Shown: piece after piece, positions 3,048-50,800 of the stretch
Layout: the number at the start of each line of letters is the position of its first letter
Position numbering within the stretch: the first letter of the stretch is position 1
NCBI RefSeq assembly: GCF_022458985.1
Contig: NC_061789.1
Coordinates: forward strand, 11,872,175 to 11,936,174
Direction of reading: 5' to 3'
DNA: 64,000 nucleotides
Source of the DNA: Mugil cephalus
Lineage: Eukaryota; Chordata; Actinopteri; Mugiliformes; Mugilidae
Notes under the pieces: generated by a model
What the model was told of the DNA's origin: nothing
The model's input: only the letters and a program-made list of their open reading frames with translations
Databases searched by the model: none
Position numbers and translations under genes: made by a program

Positions 3048-6000
3048 GACGCTACACCGCCCGCTGCCGTGACGACCAATACCGACCGACCGACCGTCCG
3101 ACCGACAGCCAGCAGAGAAAAGAAACACCAACGACAACACAAAAACTTGAAACACAAATGCAAGACAGATAACCAATCAGCTAGGAAGAGAAAACAATCC
3201 AATCACAGCTAAGAGGAAACACCACGGGTCTGGGTGGGGTTCAAAAAACAAAGAAAAAAAAAACACAATAAACGCCATCACATTATAGCTGACTTAACTA
3301 CTTAACGTATACAAAAGAGGGTACAAATAAACCTATTTATTACAGATGTACATGTAAATGTATTGAACATATGAAACAACACATGGGTTAGCTACCTGTA
3401 AAAACTGATGACCTATAATATAACATTTACTTGTTTGTTTGTTTTGCCTTTTTCCTTATTTTTTAACGGTTTCTTTCGTTTTTCGGGAGTCTCCGAGGGC
3501 AGTGATGGTGACGGCTGCCGGGTGTGAGTTCTGCGGGGCTAATCTGTCCGTTAGCTTCTGTCGCTCATTGGGCCTTCTGGAACACATTGATCTCAAACCA
3601 TTCCGAAAACTCCAGAACCACCCGGAGTTCCGTTCAGGAACAGAGGGGTTTGGCTCCGGAATGCTGCCAGTAGCTCTGGCGCTTTGCGAAAGGTCGCCCC
3701 GCAGGACGAGCGCTCTCCGGCTGTGCTAGAACCAGATTTGTTCCCTTGTTTCTGGGAGGGAGGGACCGACCTCGCCGTTGGCTCAGCCTCTTTAGACCAC
3801 CTCTCATTGGTTGCCCATTCCTGTCATTCACCTTAGTCAGCCTGTTAAATTAAATTAGCTTAAACTGGCAAAGCCCAACCTGCCACATGCTGTTTAGAAA
3901 TCAACAAGGAAAGAATGTGACACGCTTCCCATTGAGATGTTTCCACAGCCAGCCAATTGGTTGAGCTGAGTAGATGAGGGGGGAGGGGGGTGTCACTGCA
4001 ATGTGACGGGTTTCCACGACAGCAATTGCCCCTTCTTGTCACACCTATCTAACCAAAGAGCAGTGGGAGGGAGGACCTCTCGTTGTCCTGCTGAATCTGA
4101 CTGGCCAGCAGCAAATAAAAAAAAGTTTGACTAACTGGTGAACGCCGGGAAGGAAAAGGTGGTAGGAGGGTTAAAAGGAGGGTGGGAGGAGATGGACAGT
4201 TAATCTATGCAGTTACGATAGGAGGAAACTACTTGTCCCGCCTCCCCAAACCAAGATAGCCAATGAGGATCAGGGATTCACGTTACCGTAACAACATGCA
4301 CATCGCGCCGATCGATGTAGAAACATGGTGGTCGCGGCCGGGCGTCATCTCCAAGCTGTCGCAGCTGTTCTCCCGGAAGATTCTTTAAAAAATGGAGAGA
4401 ACACATTAAAAAGTGAAGAAGAAAAATACAATATGAATTTAACAAACAAGCCAGAAAATGTAGGAAACCTGTAGACGCTGGTTGCCCTGGTTACGTGAGC
4501 GTCGCGGTGATATCGTTGCCGTTTTATTATTTGATGGGAACGTTTGTTGCTTCGTTGTTTCCGTGGTGCTGCTGTTTTGGTGCGTGTGTGACGCGTCCGT
4601 GCTTCTTGGCCTGACATTGTTTAGCAGGTTAATGTTTAGTCTGTACGTTATGATGCATTTGCCTGTTTCCTCCCTGCATCCCTCCTTCTCCGACCCGACC
4701 GTGTGTGTGTGTATGTGTGTGTGTTTTATTCATACCATTGGATTGGTCGAGTTGCACAGGTGCTATTGAACAGCAGAGGATTTTCCTATTGGTGGATTTT
4801 CTCTGTGGAAGGTGGAACATGTGACACACACACATTCATATACATCCACATCAAAGACACCTCAGATATTCATTTCAGTTTTCATACCGGAAACTCCCCT
4901 TAACACATGCACATCACTTTAGTGTTAGAGATAGACTGTGTTGCTTAGCATGTTACAGCATTAGCTTGTGTTTCATGTAGATTGTGTAGAAGCTGCTTGT
5001 TGGAGACTGCTCTCAGTTTTCTGGTCTTTTCTGGTCTTCTTTAAAGTTTTCTGTCTGGTGTCCGGTGTTGAGAAAAGCTGGTTCAAAGTTTCAGAAAGTT
5101 AGAAAGCTAGCAGCTAGCTAGTGAGGCTATTTTGTCAAATTTGAAGAAAAGCAGTTTACTTTTCCACAGACCTCTTTTACCAACATACATATATACATAC
5201 ATTTTCAGTGTCACTCTGTGTTAGCATTAAACATTAGCTATATTTCCTCACAAGAACAAACGAATATCCCTCTTTGCACAAATGCACATGCTAATTAAAG
5301 TAAAATAAAAAATTATTATCAAAGACCAAATGTAGGAACAGAGTATTTGGTTTTGTTGATTATAATGAGGTCTGTGTTGAGAAGAAACTGGACACGTGGA
5401 TGGGTTGAATAACGACCACACTGTAGCTTTAGATTGAGATGGGTTCGTCAGCGCTAAGGCTCTGTGATACGGAGGTTCGTCTTCTTCTGTTGAGGCCTAC
5501 GCTGGACGGCAACAACCACAATCACCACGAGCTCACATTACACTCAGTGTCAAAGCAATAAGATTAGTGTAGTTTGACAGAAAACGTGTATGCTAGCTAC
5601 CTAGCGCACTCTGTCTGGATTCAGCCTCCAGTTTAGCAGCTGTGCTTTCTCTGGTCTCATTTCTGCATGTTAGTCCTTTGACTGATTTTTTTATTGGCTA
5701 ACAGTTGGCTAACGGTTGACTTTCTATTAAGTCGCTATGCAGCTCTGTTTCTCTGGAAGGCCATGCTCTGGCTAAAAGTTAACATGACGTGTTATTGCTT
5801 TGTCGTGGCTAGCATGCGCGAACATGAGTACGTAGTCAGTGCTTTGTGGAATCATGTGTTTTCTCAGGAGTCGTAGTTGTTAGCGCCATTAGTTTTAGAT
5901 GTCTGTGATGCTGTATAGATGAAAAAAAAAAACAGGATGTTTAACTTCTGGTGTGGAGATGAGAGGAGCTTTTGTTTTATTCTTTGGATTCCCGAAACCA

Positions 6001-18004: not shown

Positions 18005-21000
18005 CTCAGATCTGAGAGAAGAAAAAGACCAGTTTCAATTCAGACGACCTCGCAGAGGGAAAGTTACCGCAGCTTTTAGATCAGACTCACTGTGCCATCA
18101 CATTAAAGAAATTCTAGTCAGAAACTGAAGCTGATTACCAACACAGGAGTAACAAATTTACTCCACTAAAATAATTTAGCTGAGTGTGCATAGTTAACAA
18201 TTTGACTTGCCGTCCGTTACGTTAGCTAGCTAATATTTGACTGTCCTTTACTTTAGCTAACTACTATTTGACCGGAATTTACTTTAGCTAACTACTATTT
18301 GACTGTCCTTTACTTTAGCTAACTACTTTTCCACTGTCATTTACTTAAGCTAACTCCTATTTGACTTTACTTTAGCTAACTACTATTTGACTGTCATTTA
18401 CTTTAGCTAACTACTATTTTACTGGAATTTTCTTTAGCTAACTACTATTTGACTGTCCTTTACTTTAGCTAACTACTATTTGACTGGCATTTACTTTAGC
18501 TAACTACTATTTGACTGGCATTTACTTTAGCCAACTACTATTTGACTTTGTTTTGAGCTAACGACAGTTTGGTCGTTTGTCCTTTAGACTTGACTAGCCA
18601 GTACTTTTAAGTTACTGAACAGTTTGTCCAGTGCATTTAACTAACTGACAGTTTGTCCACTATTGTTAGTTGAGCTGTTACCTAACATTTTCAAATATTT
18701 TTCCATCACTTAATATAATAATAGTGACTTTACCGCTTTGGTTTAATTCTCTCTGTGTCACCAAGTGGCTTTTAAGTCATACATTAGCTAGCTAGTGAGC
18801 TATTGCTTTAGGATTAAACTAATCAGCATTTTCTATGGTTATTTTCCTCCTGAATATACATGTTTTTTTAAAATGTTTTTTTTGTCAATTGTACTAATAC
18901 TTGAGTACAGGTAGCTTTGACGAAGAACCACATATTTAAATCAGTGTTTCCTCTTTTCAATCGTAAAATCAAGAGGGACAACACAGTACGTATTTATCTT
19001 ACCTAGAGACAAGTGTGATGCAGGATTTTAAAAACACTGAGCTCCAGAGATCAATACAAAGTAACAACCACAATTTTGATGAACCGTAATTCAGTATAAA
19101 TTATTGTCATCTTAATTTTTTCCCCCACAATTTATGTTTTCGTACATTCCAACTTTCTGTTTAAACACCTGTACATTGTGATGGCAGAGAAAAACTAAAA
19201 CCTTTTTATTAAGACCCAAAGTTACGATCATCCCAACTGATTCTTTTCCAAATATTTGATCAGTTTTTATACTGAGCTATTTCAATGAATGATACCATTC
19301 AGTCCTCTAAGAGCTTCCACTTCACCACTAACAAGGGATTAATCCACTGGTGAAAACAGTTCCTTCTGTTTATGTCACAACAGCCACAGAGACCTACTGT
19401 ACGTTTAAATGTCAGAGAACTGAGCTCTTTGCTTCATCTTCTCAGGTTTCTGTTTGCCCATTATGAAGTTGTCGATGGTACCACAGAGGAAGGAAAGAAA
19501 TCACTTAATTCATGCAAAACCAGGACAAGGTTACAAATGTGAATTATTAATAAACTGTATGTGTGCAATAAACTACAGGTCGTTAACTTAAAACTTAATA
19601 TGTGCCACATAAAGCATAGAGATGCTTGGTCAGCTGGAAAAAACAGAAATAAGTAAATGATTTCTATAAAGCTACATGAAACAAAGCTATGCTGACCTTT
19701 AATTATCTACACCAAGGGGCTTTAGTGTGGTTAAAACCTTATGGACATACAGACATTAACTTCATGTATTAAAATGTAAAGACTAAATTCATTCCTTGAG
19801 TTATATTTTTTCTCGGCACTAATATATATGTTTTTCAGCTCAACCTATTAAGTACAGAGTTGATTTTTTTTTCCCTATTGCATTTCAGTTTTCATTAAAA
19901 TGTGTTGATGTGAACATGTTACAAGTGAAAAAACAAAAAACATTTAAGACCGTTAACACCAGCTAAAGGTAAATATAAGGAACCTGAAATCAGACCAGAT
20001 TGAAAACACTGAGCTCCGCTGTGTTTTTTCAGCTATTTATTTTCAGTACTCAGCAGTAAGGGTTATAGTATATGGACAAGTTTTTCTGTTAAGAAATGAA
20101 TTATCAAAACATAGTTTATAAAAGTGTATAGTAAGCATTACATATATATGCATGGAAACAAAACGTTAGAACTTCAAACAAAAAGGGGGGTTATAGTTGT
20201 TCCAAACCAATCTTCTTCTTCGTTTTCTCTAAAAACTACTTGAAATGCAGGCGGGAAAGTGTCCAAACAACAAAAACCAACCGTGGAGGAAGAAACTGGC
20301 AAAAATAAAAATAGAGAATGTACAGTTATTATTTCTGTGTTCTAGATCACATGGACTCCTACAGCACTTGACGGTCACTGCACGGCTTTTCACTTTTTAT
20401 CTTTTTTTTTTTTTTTTTAAAACTAGCACCAGTGCTCCTGAAAACGCTGACAGACGGTGTTTTTTTTTTAAACACACAGAGGCTTCCAACAGTCCAAAAA
20501 CAACGCAATTAAATAAAGAGGAAAAAAACAAACAAAAAACAAAACACCAATAAATACAAGAGGTTACCATAAAGTGTAACATAAAAAAAGGACTGAATGC
20601 ACCGAGGCGTCCCTTTCAACGCAAGTCTGATGTCTGACAACGGGGGGAGGAAGGCGAGGGATGGGGGGAGTTCAGTCAAAGTCAACGAGAAGATAAATAT
20701 GGAGGAAGAGGGGGATGATGGGAAGGCTCGGCTGAGAAAGACCATCACAACATCACTTTTATAAGAAGGCGAGAAGAACGTTGTGTCCTCAGAGTCTCCG
20801 TGGAGCCTGTCAGTCCTTCAGCTCCACAGAACAGGGGCATTGTGGGTACAGGAGGGAGGGGGTGTTTACATTAACACAGCTCTAAACTCACACATCCTAA
20901 AGACTAGCGCTGTCCATTACAAGTGTTAATAATAATAATAATAATAATCATATAAATAAATGCATTACTACACGATCCGTCGTCTTTTTTCCTTCTGCAG

Positions 21001-42464: not shown

Positions 42465-45400
42465 TCAGGCCGCGGACAGACAGGCCTGGCGGACGCTCTG
42501 AGCCCAGGTGTTGAGGAGCTCCGTCACCGAGTGTTTGTCTGGCAGCTGCAGCAGTTTGGACGTCATGTTTCTGTGGACCGTCTGCAGGAAGCTGTTCGCA
42601 CCTAAGGGACACGCACACGTTTTACAACACAGTTAAAAACTACCCGAAAACACGCATTATCACGTGAAGGCCACGGTTAATTAATTCTAAAGTGTTTTCC
42701 AGTCGTCGGAAGGCGTGCAGCTCATCTGCCAATCAAAATGATCTGATTATCTTCAGGTTTATTTTACTGGTGTATAAACACCTACAGGTTGCTTGGTTAC
42801 CACAGCGTGAAGAGTGATCAAGTCAAGAAGGTGCTGCCTTTTAATCAGCGTCATTATTGATTGTTTAACTACACTTTGATGAGTTTTTATTTGGGGCAAT
42901 AAGTTGCTTTAACACGAACAGCTATTCATCCAGTTAAAAGAAGAGTTGACCTGTTGCACGTTTTTGCTGCTTCAGTCTGAAACCGACAGACATATTTTAT
43001 AGTGAACTATAATTGATGCGTTTGACTTTTTTTTTTAAAATATATACGGAGCAGCGAATCCGAGTCAGAGTGAACTCGGCAAAGCGGACGTTTCTCACCG
43101 TATTGCTCTCCGTCGTCGGCCCAGTACGGACTCTGATCGGGATAATCAGCAGGGACGCTGAGCTGCAGAGGAGGGACACTGGGCAGGTTTTTATCGTCTG
43201 AAACGGAAAAGAAAATGACATTTCAGCACCCCGCTGTCACGCTCTTACTCCGACTAGTTCAGCAGAGAAACATTTATTTAGAAAAACTGGAACATCACAC
43301 ACATACTTGCTCCTTTCCACTGTTGTTAGTTTAAGCATTTAATCTATTTATAGCATCGCTACATAATTAACAGGTGGTAAACTAGAAGCTATACTTAATA
43401 CGCTTATTTGTGCCTAATTAACTTTACTTGCAGGAAACATGTTGACAATTGTCTATAATCATTATCAATCAATGTGTATCGGCCGGAGCTCTGCAGCCTC
43501 ACCTAGTTTGCAGACAAGGTGCACGGTGCCGTTGTTGCTGCAGAACGAGGGGTCCAGGTTGACCAGGAACTTGACATCAAGGCGAGCCACCTCTCCCTGC
43601 AGGATGTTGGGGATGGTCTGCCGCTCGTCGTCCTCGTGCTTCCTCTTCCTGCCGGAAACGTTGGGGCCCCTGGACGAGGAGGAGGAGATCGGTCCATTAA
43701 AACCGCAGAGAAAGCAAACAGCCTGCACACAATGTGAGGAAATACCTACGTGATGGGCGGCCCGTGGATGGCGCTCATGGCGGGGGCGAAGGTTCGGTAC
43801 AGGGAGTGGTTGAAGACCGGGGAGCGGATGTTGGCCATGACGGCGTCCAGCAGCGGTTGGCACAGATACTGCTGCTTGGTGGGGACTGGAGGGGGCGGGG
43901 GCGTCGGCTGAAACGACACGACGCTCGTTTAAAAGACGCCTTGACCCGAGACAACGGCTCTTTAAATAATATGAAATGTTTAAAAAGAAGCCCGAGGAAA
44001 CGGGAGAAACGTTTACCACGGCCATGTCGTTCTTTAGCTTCTCTAAAGCAATTTCACATTTCTGCAGAGTCTTCAGAGGACACCTGCAGGACAGAGGGCG
44101 GACACAGAAATGATGCTGATCCTTGACGCTGCACTGTGTTCACGAAAGCTTATGTTTGCTTCTTTTTTAACTTACTTGATGTGTGTTGTTGTGACTATGT
44201 GAAGCCTTACATGACAGAATAAGTGCGGAGAGGACGGGTTTTTACCTGGTGTTTGGATCAGTCAGGATGTTCAGAAGACTCTTCATTTTACTAAGGTCCT
44301 TCTTCCTGTCTGAAAACAAAACATCTGTTTTTATCCAAAAACTCTCACTGGGTCGCATCATTGATCCTCAATACTTTTAGTCAGTTATATAATAATAACT
44401 ACACACAAAAGATAGAAAAGATCGTGACTTGCTTATGTGTGACCATCTACCTCAGAGAACGACAGTTTGTTTGTATAAAATCATTCACAAATAAGTACAG
44501 TAAGGACGCTGGTTGATGTATGATCTCTGTGAGAAGAAGCCATGTGAGCAGGATGCAGGACCCACCTTCATTTTTGTCTATCTTGTTGATCATCCGGCGC
44601 AGCGGCTCAATGTATTTGGAGAGCTGTTTGAGTTTCTCCATGTACTGCTGGTCCTCCAGAGAAGAGGCTCCAGCCGGACTCATGACGGAGTTGGGGTTAC
44701 CTGAGGGCAGCAGGAGGAGGGAGGAAGTGATGTAATATTACTGGCCCAATACCAGAGTCATGTTGGTGTGTTACGTGGAGTGTTACCTGGTGTGTTGTTA
44801 GTGTGTTACCTAGAGTTTTGTTGGTGTGTTACCTGGAGTGTTGTTGGTGTGTTACCTAGAGTGTTGTTGGTGTGTTACCTGGAGTGTTGTTAGTGTGTTA
44901 CATGGAGTGTTGTTAGTGTGTTACCTAGAGTGTTGTTGGTGTGTTACCTGGAGTGTTTTTGGTGTGTTACCTAGAGCGTTGTTGTTGTGTTACCTGGAGT
45001 TTTGTTGGTGTGTTACCTGGAGTGTTGTTGGTGTGTTACCTGGAGTTTTGTTGGTGTGTTACCTAGAGTGTTGTTGGTGTGTTACCTAGAGTTTTGTTGG
45101 TGTGTTTTACCTGGAGTGTTGTTGGTGTGTTTTACCTGGAGTGTTGTTGGTGTGTTACCTGGAGTTTTGTTGGTGTGTTACCTAGAGTGTTGTTGGTGTG
45201 TTACCTAGAGTTTTGTTAGTGTGTTACCTGGAGTTTTGTTGGTGCGTTACCTAGAGTGTTGTTGGTGTGTTACCTGGAGTTTTGTTGGTGTGTTACCTGG
45301 AGTGTTTTTGGTGTGTTACCTAGAGTGTTGTTGGTGTGTTTTACCTGGAGTGTTGTTGGTGTGTTACCTGGAGTTTTGTTGGTGTGTTACCTTGAGTGTT

Positions 45401-47788
45401 GTTGGTGTGTTTTACCTGGAGTGTTTTTGGTGTGTTACCTAGAGCGTTGTTGGTGTGTTACCTGAAGTGTTGTTGGTGTGTTACCTAGAGTGTTGCTGGT
45501 GTGTTACCTGAAGTGTTGTTGGTGTGTTTTACCTGGAGTGTTGTTGGTGTGTTACCTAGAGTGTTGTTGGAGTGTTACCTGGAGTTTTGTTGGTGTGGTA
45601 CCTAGAGTGTTGTTGGTGTGTTACCTAGAGTGTTGTTGGTGTGTTACCTGGAGCTTTGTTGGTGTGTTACCTAGAGTGTTGTTGGTGTGTTACCTGGAGT
45701 GTTGTTGGTGTGTTACCTGGAGTGTTGTTGGTGTGTTACCTGTAATATTACTGCCCCAATACTGGAGTATTGTTGGTGTGTTACGTGGGGTGTTACCTTG
45801 TGTGTTGTTAGTGTGTTACGTGGAGTGTTGTTGGTGTGTTACCTGGAGTTTTGTTGGTGTGTTACCTAGAGTGTTGTTGGTGTGTTACCTAGAGTGTTGT
45901 TGGTGTGTTACCTGGAGTGTTGTTGGTGTGTTACCTGGAGTTTTGTTGGTGTGTTACCTTGAGTGTTGTTGGTGTGTTACCTTCAGTGTTGTTGGTGTGT
46001 CACAAGGGGTTTTGTTGGTGTGTTACCTAGAGTGTTGTTGATGTGTTACCTGGAGTGATATCTGGTGTGTTACCTGGTGTGTTACATAGTGTTACTTGGA
46101 GCGTTACCTGGAATGCTGTTGGTGTGTTATAGGGAATGTTGTTGCTGTGTTGTTATTGTGTTACGTGGAGCGTTGCTGTTGTGTTACCTGGTGTGTTGAG
46201 CGGCCCAGGTGAGGGGACTCCATAGTTCTGGGGGGTCCTGGAGTTGGCGGGGCTCGGTGAGGGCTGGGGAGACGGGCTGGGCTGAAAGCCTCCTGGAGAG
46301 GGAGTGGGACCAGAGCTGGCGAGAGAAGGCATCAGATAGTTTAAACATCTGGTGGACGGTGAGGACAATTTACCAGACAGAAGGAGTCAATACTGGTTGC
46401 CAAGAGAGGGATCAGGTCTGTCGTACCTGGCTGAGTTGGGCTGTGAGGTGGGGGGTTGTGGTGACGGCTGAGGAGGAGGCAGCATCGACTGTGGCGTCTG
46501 GACCTGACCAGGTGAGGGTGAGGACATCATCGCATGTTGCACCTGCGAGGAAGGAAAATGAGCCAATCAGAGGCAGAGCACAGACCATCTACTGCCCCTG
46601 TGAGGGCAGGCAGGAGATTTTCAGTCTGGATTTTGTACAAAGCATAATCAAATGCTTCTTCACGGCAGAAAATCTCACTAACAAAAATCTGCGTTAAACT
46701 CTCCTGACTGCTACGGTGTCTTATAAAAGCACACAGGACAACGCGATGAAAAGCTGCTGACAGACAGAAGCAGAGCGTGGACAGGTGGAGGTCAGACTGG
46801 AAGTCAGTACCTGCTGTGGCATCGCCTGTCCTCCGACCACAGCAGCAGCAACGTTTGGAGTAGGTATAGAAGCGTTCGGGGCAGCTCGAGGCAGCCGGGC
46901 CGGAATCTGTATCAGAGAATCAGGACGTACCAGCTTCAGACGAGGACACACAGCACAAGAGGACACAAGAGGACAAGTGAGCAGAGAGGACGCAGACAGA
47001 CACCGCAGAACACACCTGGATTCATTAAGCTACGACACTCGAGGCTTTCTGTTTTTTTCAGTTCGAGGACGTACATCATTTAGTGATGGAAAACCAGCAG
47101 AGATGATTTAACCTGTAAAAATCATTTATTTGGGATTTTTTTCGGGAATAATCGTTTCCAAACAGTCGAGTAGTTCAGGAGAGGAACTAAGGATTTAAGA
47201 ATGAGTTCTGCATGTTGGTTTTCATAATGCTGAACGTTTGCACTTTGCACTGTCACGGTGTCGATTGTTTTATTATTTACGATGACTGGTTAATCTGAAT
47301 TATCTCACAGTCGTATTTTTAAGGGCTGGAAAAAGGAAATATTACTCTAAACGACTCTGAGTCTCTAAATATGTGTGTTACAAACACGTCTTATATTTGG
47401 ATCCATACAGTAAAAGAGGAGATAAAGATCCTTTTAAATCTGTGTGTCACCAATGAGACATTTACAGAAATAAGTGGAAAATTATATGACTTTAATATTT
47501 CGCATCACTTTATTATTTAATATTATTTAAGAAAGATGTTGTTGATTGACAGAATGACCTCCACATGGTTAATTATCTGCTGCTCAACCTGGGAACTGAG
47601 CAGCGACGTCGTGTGACTTGATTTCGAGCTGACGCACATGAAGCACCTGGGCCTGTGGCCGTCTCACCTGTCCAGGTACAGCGCCGGCAGCTGCAGCGGC
47701 TGCATTGAGCTGTGCCTGGGCGGCGGCCTGCTGCGCTGCTTGCTGCGCCTGTTGCTGCTGCAGGACTGCACGAGCCTGCTCGCACACA

Positions 47789-47834
<46 letters not shown>

Positions 47835-50800
47835 GGCAAAGCATGCAAGCAGAGGGAAAGGTGAGGATGTGCGTCGGTCTCTGAACTAGTAACAAGTGGC
47901 TCTGTGCTGCCAAGAATCAGAAAAAGCAAAAGGCTGAGTCGCAGTGACATTTTTTACTAAATGAGACACATTGGGAAAAAAAAGCACTATCTTGATCACA
48001 AAGCTAACTCTGAGTCAGACCTCAACCTTCTTGTTGGTTTGGTTTATCACTTCCTTTCATCCATGCAATCTCCTGAGGGTGTTTCACTGGATCCAGATCA
48101 GCTACATAGGGAGGACCAGTTTGTCTCTGAGGCCTTATAAAAATCATCTCAACCTTCTGCTGCCCAGCGTTACAGAGCCTGGGTCCATGGTTTTCTGCTG
48201 TAGGAGTCCTTCCACCTCCAAGCTGTTGAGCCTGAGATACAGTTGTTTCTTCTCCACCAGTTCAGAGGCCCATTCTGAATCAGCTCCTCTTCATAATGAG
48301 GTGACATCTTTACCGGCACTGCTACAGTATCTCCTTCTCCTTCTCAAACATCTTCTAAGAGTCTCTACTGAGCTGCTGTTAATGGTTAATGGTAATGTCA
48401 ATGGATCAGTTTATGTTCAGGTCACTTCCCGTTGGAGCTGCTGGTCTTTGAGGGCTGCTGAGGCTTCAACACTTGGTGTGAGGTGAGCGACCAGATGCCT
48501 CCCAGCTGCCGTGGTGTGGACAGGCCGACTCTTGTTTTAGCGCTCCCCCGATGCGTAACTGCAGAGTGAGTCCGGTGCAAAATAACTCCAGTAATCTTCT
48601 TCTCTGAGACGGATCCCTGGTCAACACGTGTGAACGCAAGATCTAGTCCAGAAATGTGCTGTCGCTGTCACGCAAGCATCCGTCGTCTGTGACGTCCACA
48701 TGTGCCCAATACTTACACACTCATCTTAAACCTATAGTCCAAAGTCAACTGAACACCTGCTACAGTTATACATAATACATTGTGGAGATATTTGTAACTA
48801 ATTTTAGTTCTATATGGTGCACAGAAGAGCAGAAACACGGTACTAATCAGAGTTACAGAGTCTCTGACCATTCAAAAAGGCACTCACACTTAAAAGCTGC
48901 ACATAATTCAAACATGGAAACTGTGCAATAACGTCTTGTCTCACCTGGAAAGCGTAATTATTCAATGCCGGCTGCTTCTGCTGCTGCTGCTGCTGGCTGA
49001 GTTGGTTGGAAACATGCTGGGCCGATGACATTTGTCCGGCTAGAGACTGAGGCACCAAGCCGGGAAGCTGCTGCTGCTGCGAGTGTGGAGCCATCTGACC
49101 CTGAGGCTGAGCCTGAACCTGTTGCTGCTGCACTTGCACCATGTGGTGAAGGGACTGGGCCTGTGTCTGAGCCTGAGCCTGGGCCTGAGCCTGAGCTTGG
49201 GCTTGGGCCTGAGCTTGGGCCTGAGCCTGAGCCTGGGCTTGAGCTTGCGCTTGAGCTTGAGCCTGAGCTTGAGCCTGTGCTTGGGCCTGTGCTTGAGCCT
49301 GAGCTTGGGCCTGTGCTTGAGCTTGTGCCTGGGCCTGAGCTTGAGCTTGAGCTTGAGCTTGTGCCTGGGCCTGAGCTTGAGCCTGAGCTTGGGCCTGAGC
49401 TTGAGCCTGAGCCTGTGCTTGGGCCTGCGCTTGTGCTTGAGCTTGAGCTTGAGCCTGAGCCTGGGCCTGAGCTTGAGCTTGGGCCTGAGCCTGAACATGT
49501 TGAAGGTGCAGCATCCTTGTCTGGTGCATCTGCAGGCACAGAAAGCAAAGTCTGAATTAGATTCAACTGTGCTGAGTACAACAACGGAACCAATGAAATC
49601 CAGTCAGCATCTAACTGAACATCCAACAGGATCAATGGGGAAGAAGTTCTTCCTGCGTCTACTGATGAGGGAACAGAAGTGTAACAAGGGTTATCCATCA
49701 GAGAGACAGAACTCGGACTCTCTAACCCACATCCAGGATGTTCACAAAGCTCAACATTTTGTGACACTTTTTGGGTAAACAGTGTGTCAGCAGTTCAATG
49801 GCATGGCACCTGGTTCGGCTGCTGCTGGTTCTGGGCCTGCTGCTGCTGGTGGTTCTGGTGCTGCTGCTGGAGCTGCTGGTTCTGGTGGTGCTGCTGCAGC
49901 TGCTGCGCCCTCAGCTGCTGCTGCTGCTGCTGCACCTGAAACTGTTGCTGCATGGCAGTCTGCTGCTGTTGCTGCTGCTGGAACTGCTGGAACTGCTGCT
50001 GCTGCACCATCTGCTGCATGGGCATCTGGCCTGGACCCCCTACTGCAGAAACAGACAGGAGCTGAAGGACTCACCGAGCTTTACCACACAGAACCAGCCT
50101 GAAAAAAGCCTCTGGAGTTTCAAACATGCCAAAGCAGAGGCTGAAAATTAAACCAACTCTGACGCCAAAATGTTGTCATTCAGACGCAGCCGGCACCCGC
50201 GGAAGATGTGCATTTACAGCAAACACACCACATGGAGGAAACACACTCACTGGCTTGTGGGTTTCCAGCCACCCCTGCCATGGCATGCTGGCCCATCTGC
50301 ATCTGCCCCATGGCCCCCATGCCACCTACTGGAGCCCCGGTGGGGCGGGGCCCCATGCCAATGGTGCCCGGGCCCCCTCCAACCCCTGTCAGGTTAGTCA
50401 GGGCATTCATGGGATCTAGCAGAAGGGTAGACAACAGACATATATTACGCAGCTCCAACATGCACAGCAAGAAATCATGAACGCCAAGACTTTGGTAGTG
50501 ACAGATCCAGCAGAGGACAGAACACAGCAAAGGAAATCAAAATAAAAAAAAAGAAGAGCGAACGGGGACAAAACGTCGACTCACCTGGACCTCCCAGAGC
50601 CTTCTTATCTGGAAAGAAGACACAGCAGTCAATAACACTGGTCCCGAGTACACTTAAAATGCAGCACAATCAACAAAACGCTGGATGAGGGGGAAATTAT
50701 ATGATATGATAAAATGGTATATTTGTTATTTATACCGTCGGACTGAGAGAATTAACTTACGGATGTCTCTGAAGTGAATGATCAGTCTCGCCACCAGAGA

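Follow-up and report, generated by a model that had tools for sequence, protein, structure and literature searches.

The intron between exons 11 and 12 of med15 in the fish Mugil cephalus holds a tandem array of 23-bp units, and the register of that array begins at the splice donor of exon 11 itself. The gene lies on the minus strand of a 64,000-nucleotide stretch of DNA (C20:11872175-11936174), referred to here as the window; positions are those of the window unless a contig or locus is named. Judged from its letters, we consider the array likely to be a donor-anchored intronic minisatellite, which would behave as a largely passive variable number tandem repeat (VNTR) with splicing at the first donor. 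An earlier reading of the same DNA, hereafter the original prediction, had described the units as decoy 5′ splice sites.

The gene assignment comes from protein matches. In the joined translation of exons 11 and 12, which keep the numbering of the original prediction, all 88 query residues align with human MED15 (7emf_O; E = 1.9e-38), and a Pfam Med15_M match is present (E = 1.4e-10). Removal of the intron by splicing is deduced from the sequence and this match, with CACACCAG/GTAACACA at the donor and CTGCCCTCAG/GTAACCCC at the acceptor (a slash marks the splice junction). Because exon 12 begins GTAACCCC, the real acceptor also reads CAG/GTAAC. At window 44691-44703, where the exon starts with GTAAC, the spliced junction respells a donor, CACCAG/GTAACC.

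Within the intron, Tandem Repeats Finder reports a period of 23, with 41.6 copies at 44776-45742 and 12.9 copies at 45786-46083, confirming the array first noticed by inspection. Past the real donor, 58 recognisable 23-bp units can be counted, and AGGTAA is intact in 52 of them. GGTAAC occurs 47 times in the intron and GGTAA 52 times, with 5, 21, and 17 occurrences of GGTAAAAC, CCAGGTAACAC, and CTAGGTAACAC, respectively; the earlier estimate of about 45-50 copies of GGTAAC and a few of GGTAAAA in roughly 1.49 kb was accurate for an intron of 1487 nt. Of the 43 occurrences of the motif GGTAACACA on the minus strand of the window, 42 fall in the intron, and the plus strand has none, so the arrangement of this motif in an array is not due to chance. 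The array RNA is weakly folded, with a minimum free energy of −63 for 600 nt versus −158 on average for 20 random stretches. Its 54 donor-like sites have a mean unpaired probability of 0.66, with 0.58 for the first donor. The intron has no match in plasmid records, as expected.

The array likely grew out of the exon 11 junction. The real donor is separated from the next GTAA by exactly 23 nt, and the register starts at 46187; the span of 44731..46187 originally given to the repeat holds for the array proper, with this qualification as to where the register itself starts. Sequences on both sides of the donor resemble those of the units. Exon positions −15 to −4 match an upstream flank within the array at 9 of 12 positions, and intron positions +6 to +20 match at 14 of 15. 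Of 440 further AGGT sites in the window, one reaches the former level and none the latter. Furthermore, the donor is flanked by two AACACA motifs 12 bp apart (AACACA-CCAGGT-AACACA), whereas only 3 of the 72 remaining AGGTRA sites of the window have a direct repeat of at least six bases in the same range. The 12-mer predicted by this repeat, GTAACACACCAG, is found exactly at 46085, 46073, and 45507. Growth from the exon 11 donor, as proposed originally, is thus supported by the register, by the sequence shared between exon end and intron start, and by the AACACA repeat across the junction. Since the array is divided by one of two copies of the intron's tail (at 45762-45740, the other being at 44752-44731), an earlier duplication probably took in both array and tail.

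Several points weigh against this interpretation. Of 20,000 mononucleotide shuffles of the CA-rich exon end, 837 attain the 9/12 match, so the exon-side match is weak when taken alone. Both the match on the intron side and the direct repeat involve some circularity, because the first unit already belongs to the array. The 23-mer could have arisen as a diverged dimer of the 12-mer, but the case for this is weak, as 213 of 5000 shuffles score as well. Finally, an effect of array length on the use of inner donors is not backed by the closest precedent, the human ABCA7 intron 18 VNTR, because retention of one unit there does not change with VNTR length (PMC5954066).

The 66 GT dinucleotides of the intron include 25 with the 9-mer CAGGTAACA, namely the real donor and 24 downstream sites; TAGGTAACA accounts for 17 more, CAGGTAAAA for 5, and AAGGTAACA for 4. 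Because the 9-mers are identical, any model that considers only the 9-mer must score the 24 downstream copies like the real donor. We took donor strength as the energy of the duplex formed with the 5′ end of U1, using its known sequence. The exon 11 donor is itself weak, carrying C at +5, and yields −8.0 kcal/mol versus −14.0 kcal/mol for the consensus donor. A value of −8.0 kcal/mol or better is reached by 31 of the 66 GTs including the real donor, which leaves 30 downstream GTs that equal or surpass it. Many of the repeat donors therefore do match the real one, as had been claimed, and scoring them does not place them far below it. Use of an inner donor should be wasteful. Among 60 GTAA(C/A) donors tested, the real one alone keeps the reading frame open, and splicing from any of the 59 downstream donors would meet a stop codon before exon 12 ends.

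We searched the genome (634.8 Mb, 24 contigs) for related arrays. The pattern CCAGGTAACACA occurs 263 times, compared to 105 for the same pattern read backwards; one run of it, on C1, belongs to the plexin-like array L009 described below. Three AGGTAAC within 5-35 bases give 574 matches versus 15 for the reversed pattern; triple matches overlap within arrays, and these counts are not numbers of arrays. AGGVAAC triples total 1808 for three letters, so the AGGTAAC count by itself proves nothing. AGGTAAG triples yield 76 matches versus 598 for the reversed pattern. Arrays of the consensus donor were rejected as a class, with 2 matches to three copies of CAGGTAAGT versus 21 reversed; both were inspected and neither is a long array.

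Inspection of AGGTAAC arrays, among the matches listed, covered C1:27.03-28.18 Mb, a range outside which the med15 array lies, and gave nine distinct arrays (L009, L042, L043, L044, L045, L046 with its copy L047, L048, L049, and L050). Five of these (L009 and L042 to L045) apparently start at an exon donor. Two adjoin exons confirmed by Pfam, as does the med15 array: L009, which is plexin-like, and L042, which follows a calcium-channel C-terminus (E = 7.6e-15, the match reaching residue 36/37 before the junction). L043, L044, and L045 are probably donor-anchored, as is L051 from the AGGTAAG set, the exon being judged by eye in all four. Pfam returns no family above cut-offs for the exons of these four loci, and names such as brambleberry-like and HCFC1-like, which we take to describe some of them, are not confirmed by the family searches. 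Searches of the PDB give a best E of 0.9 for the L044 exon and no match for the calcium-channel and plexin exons. For the remaining arrays, L046/L047 has its repeat on the acceptor side and on the opposite strand, next to a glutamate-receptor-like exon (Pfam ANF_receptor), L049 is antisense and ahead of an apparent exon, and contact with a donor is not demonstrated by inspection for L048 and L050. L046 and L047 are near-identical loci (G000:C1:27324196 and 27401036) about 77 kb apart that have the short acceptor-side 36-bp repeat in common. Of nine AGGTAAG loci fetched and picked by eye, in which L053 resembles L054 and L056 resembles L057, only L051 looks anchored. The difference between 5/9 AGGTAAC arrays and 1/9 AGGTAAG loci is not significant (P = 0.13).

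Open frames of 44-134 codons precede the first donor at the seven anchored places, med15 included. Such a frame is no proof of an exon, because 24 of the AGGTRA sites in the window, out of 125 counted, have frames of 60 codons or more; at L043 and L051, the longest open frame differs from the frame read as coding. A direct repeat of at least six bases within 15 bases spans the junction at four of the seven anchored donors (med15, L009, L042, and L044) and at none of L043, L045, and L051. These repeats are partly circular as evidence, since the intron side is already array sequence.

At the plexin-like array, the exon together with the next one matches the Pfam plexin TIG_2 domain (E = 8.8e-8). 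The array begins 27 nt upstream of the donor, so that the last 27 bp of the coding exon are part of the repeated unit. The reading frame is kept and stays open at seven downstream donors (locus positions 4846 to 5044), with 11 residues, VTHTFTCTTHQ, added at each step. The next two donors are open and out of frame, and a stop intervenes from 5142 on. At L043, the 30-bp unit similarly includes 14 bp of the apparent exon end.

Other explanations of the med15 array can be weighed against these results. We regard it as unlikely that the array is an ordinary intronic minisatellite, with a donor-like motif that arose by chance and that abuts the exon because the repeat fills the intron. The AGGTAAC triples, which do not exceed AGGVAAC triples, agree with such an origin, as does the non-significant difference in anchoring, in which four of the six anchors were judged by eye. 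However, the register starts at the donor, the donor flanks match the units, and the apparent exon end falls within the unit in both the plexin-like and the L043 arrays. It is also improbable that the relevant ligand is a CA-rich splicing regulator, with hnRNP L or LL bound to ACAC motifs and the donors incidental. hnRNP L binds CA-rich RNA, and the intron offers 152 ACAC and 60 ACACA in its 1487 nt. Because any CA-rich repeat would act alike, the donor motif would be left unexplained.

Proposals that give the donors themselves a function fare worse. The original prediction suggested that the decoy sites could sequester U1, block premature cleavage, shift the donor, or make intron retention length-dependent. 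In a functional version of this idea, selection would keep the array so that bound U1 blocks premature cleavage, retains pre-mRNA on chromatin, or sets the med15 level. About 30 sites matching the real donor in weakly folded RNA, together with the retention of AGGTAA in most inner units, agree with such a buffer, yet the sites are weak and the intron contains 0 of 11 types of poly(A) hexamer. The suggested block of premature cleavage thus has no visible target, and telescripting was rejected. Selection on the donor core was also rejected, with 2.1 changes per column in the core versus 5.6 in the rest of the unit over 58 inner units (P = 0.13, not significant). A recursive splicing ladder, in which every CT(C/T)AG/GTAAC would serve as a combined acceptor and donor, finds agreement in the AG/GT of intact units and in the same form of the real acceptor, but the 17 nt before array AGs are 51% pyrimidine with a mean of 1.3 T, where the real acceptor has 88% and 5 T, and the intron is just 1.5 kb long. 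Recursive splicing was rejected for want of a pyrimidine tract and seems scarcely credible. With stops downstream, no poly(A) hexamers, no pyrimidine tracts, and a donor core that is not significantly conserved, no tested feature points to selection for decoys. A U1 decoy function, which appears very unlikely, is not supported by any of the sequence tests made.

For the donor-anchored minisatellite that we prefer, the first copies may have formed by slipped-strand duplication across the AACACA direct repeat. The 23-bp unit would then have been amplified through unequal exchange, and one later duplication would have copied the array plus tail. The resulting CA-rich and weakly structured RNA would present U1 with about 30 sites as good as the real donor. 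Exon definition and first-come co-transcriptional commitment would hold splicing at the first donor, while a small share of transcripts would use a later unit and carry a stop codon. The med15 array is probably length-variable, and by analogy with ABCA7, a varying copy number may modestly alter exon 12 inclusion or med15 output.

The kind of repeat is already known, and the med15 case is new. The VNTR in human ABCA7 intron 18 has a 25-bp unit, and the canonical exon 18 donor supplies its first GT; the donor one unit inward is used in some transcripts (2 ± 1%), resulting in a frameshift and stop (PMC5954066). The array ranges from about 12 to about 427 units, and longer alleles show more exon 19 skipping and lower expression (PMC5954066). 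The med15 array is similar in having a unit of minisatellite size (23 versus 25 bp), in that its first GT is the real exon donor, the med15 exons being assigned by protein match, and in that downstream units carry donors comparable to the real one (30 GTs by U1 duplex energy). The two differ in composition, as med15 is CA-rich and the ABCA7 region is C-rich. Length variation, skipping, and expression effects have been measured in ABCA7, whereas med15 is known from one assembly. A human IFI6/6-16/G1P3 minisatellite is reportedly the subject of Turri et al. 1995. Two downstream repeat units of the IFI6 minisatellite serve as donors (PMC4526556). These give rise to different protein isoforms, while the downstream med15 donors tested lead to a stop; as to coding effect, the plexin-like array is nearer to IFI6 than med15 is. 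Human variable internal tandem repeats are minisatellites with a mean unit of 30 bp, some of which lie at exon-intron boundaries and alter splicing (PMC2812944). That source covers genes in segmental duplications, with about four units on average and half in coding exons, and describes the formation of novel introns, in contrast to the long donor array within one intron of med15. Our literature search, which covered few subscription journals, found no description of donor-anchored arrays that recur as a class within a single genome, and on decoy or competing 5′ splice sites it found nothing closer than ABCA7.

A broader proposal, which we advance tentatively and would not presume to be correct, is that minisatellites in this genome arise repeatedly at splice donors. 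Slippage would duplicate donors that are flanked by short CA-rich direct repeats, chiefly near present or former chromosome ends; the arrays would multiply alternative donors and sometimes create an expandable coding repeat, as in the plexin-like case with its 33-bp unit and seven in-frame units, and med15 would be one member. The weak +5C form CAG/GTAACAC would follow from the position of such donors between CA-rich repeats. VNTR polymorphism is reported to be enriched in human subtelomeres (PMC7608644). Eight of the nine AGGTAAG loci lie less than 2 Mb from a contig end, with the ninth at C1:28.46 Mb. A cluster of donor-motif minisatellites is located mid-contig at G000:C1:27.03-28.46 Mb. 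C1 measures 54.5 Mb and seven other contigs 16.3-31.9 Mb; we infer that the cluster was a former chromosome end, possibly a fusion point. The med15 array itself is mid-contig (11.9 of 22.3 Mb) and does not fit the chromosome-end pattern. A series of near-identical donors behind one real donor is a natural test of the spliceosome's choice of the first site. If donor-anchored arrays are common, they would be a general, length-variable source of splicing variation, comparable to the disease-linked human ABCA7 VNTR.

Table 1. Coordinates and sequence features of the med15 intron, its flanking exons, and the plexin-like array.
Feature	Coordinates	Strand	Details
med15 exon 11	46188..46315	minus	128 nt, ends ...AACACACCAG
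Real donor of exon 11	46180..46187	minus	GTAACACA, preceded by exon end CACACCAG; U1 duplex −8.0 kcal/mol
med15 intron 11-12	44701..46187	minus	1487 nt; A 43%, C 35%, G 10%, T 12%
Irregular array start	46050..46107	minus	10-12-bp sub-units; two exact GTAACACACCAG in tandem (46085, 46073)
Main 23-bp donor array	44776..46083	minus	unit GTAACACACCAACAACACTC(C/T)AG
Internal copy of the intron's unique tail	45740..45762	minus	GTATTGGGGCAGTAATATTACAG; divides the array in two
Terminal copy of the intron tail	44731..44752	minus	GTATTGGGCCAGTAATATTACA, ahead of the pyrimidine tract
med15 exon 12	44566..44700	minus	135 nt (multiple of three), begins GTAACCCC
Plexin-like array (L009)	L009 4786-5600 = G000:C1:27282785-27283599		33-bp unit CACACCTTCACCTGTACTACACACCAGGTAACA, 24.7 copies

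Two further repeats are present in the window. A separate minisatellite at 18217-18547 has a period of 31 and 10.8 copies, and its consensus is free of the AGGTRA donor motif on the plus strand. In the med15 region, a hexamer repeat on the minus strand at 49155-49494 encodes, within an open frame, a very long run of the dipeptide Gln-Ala.

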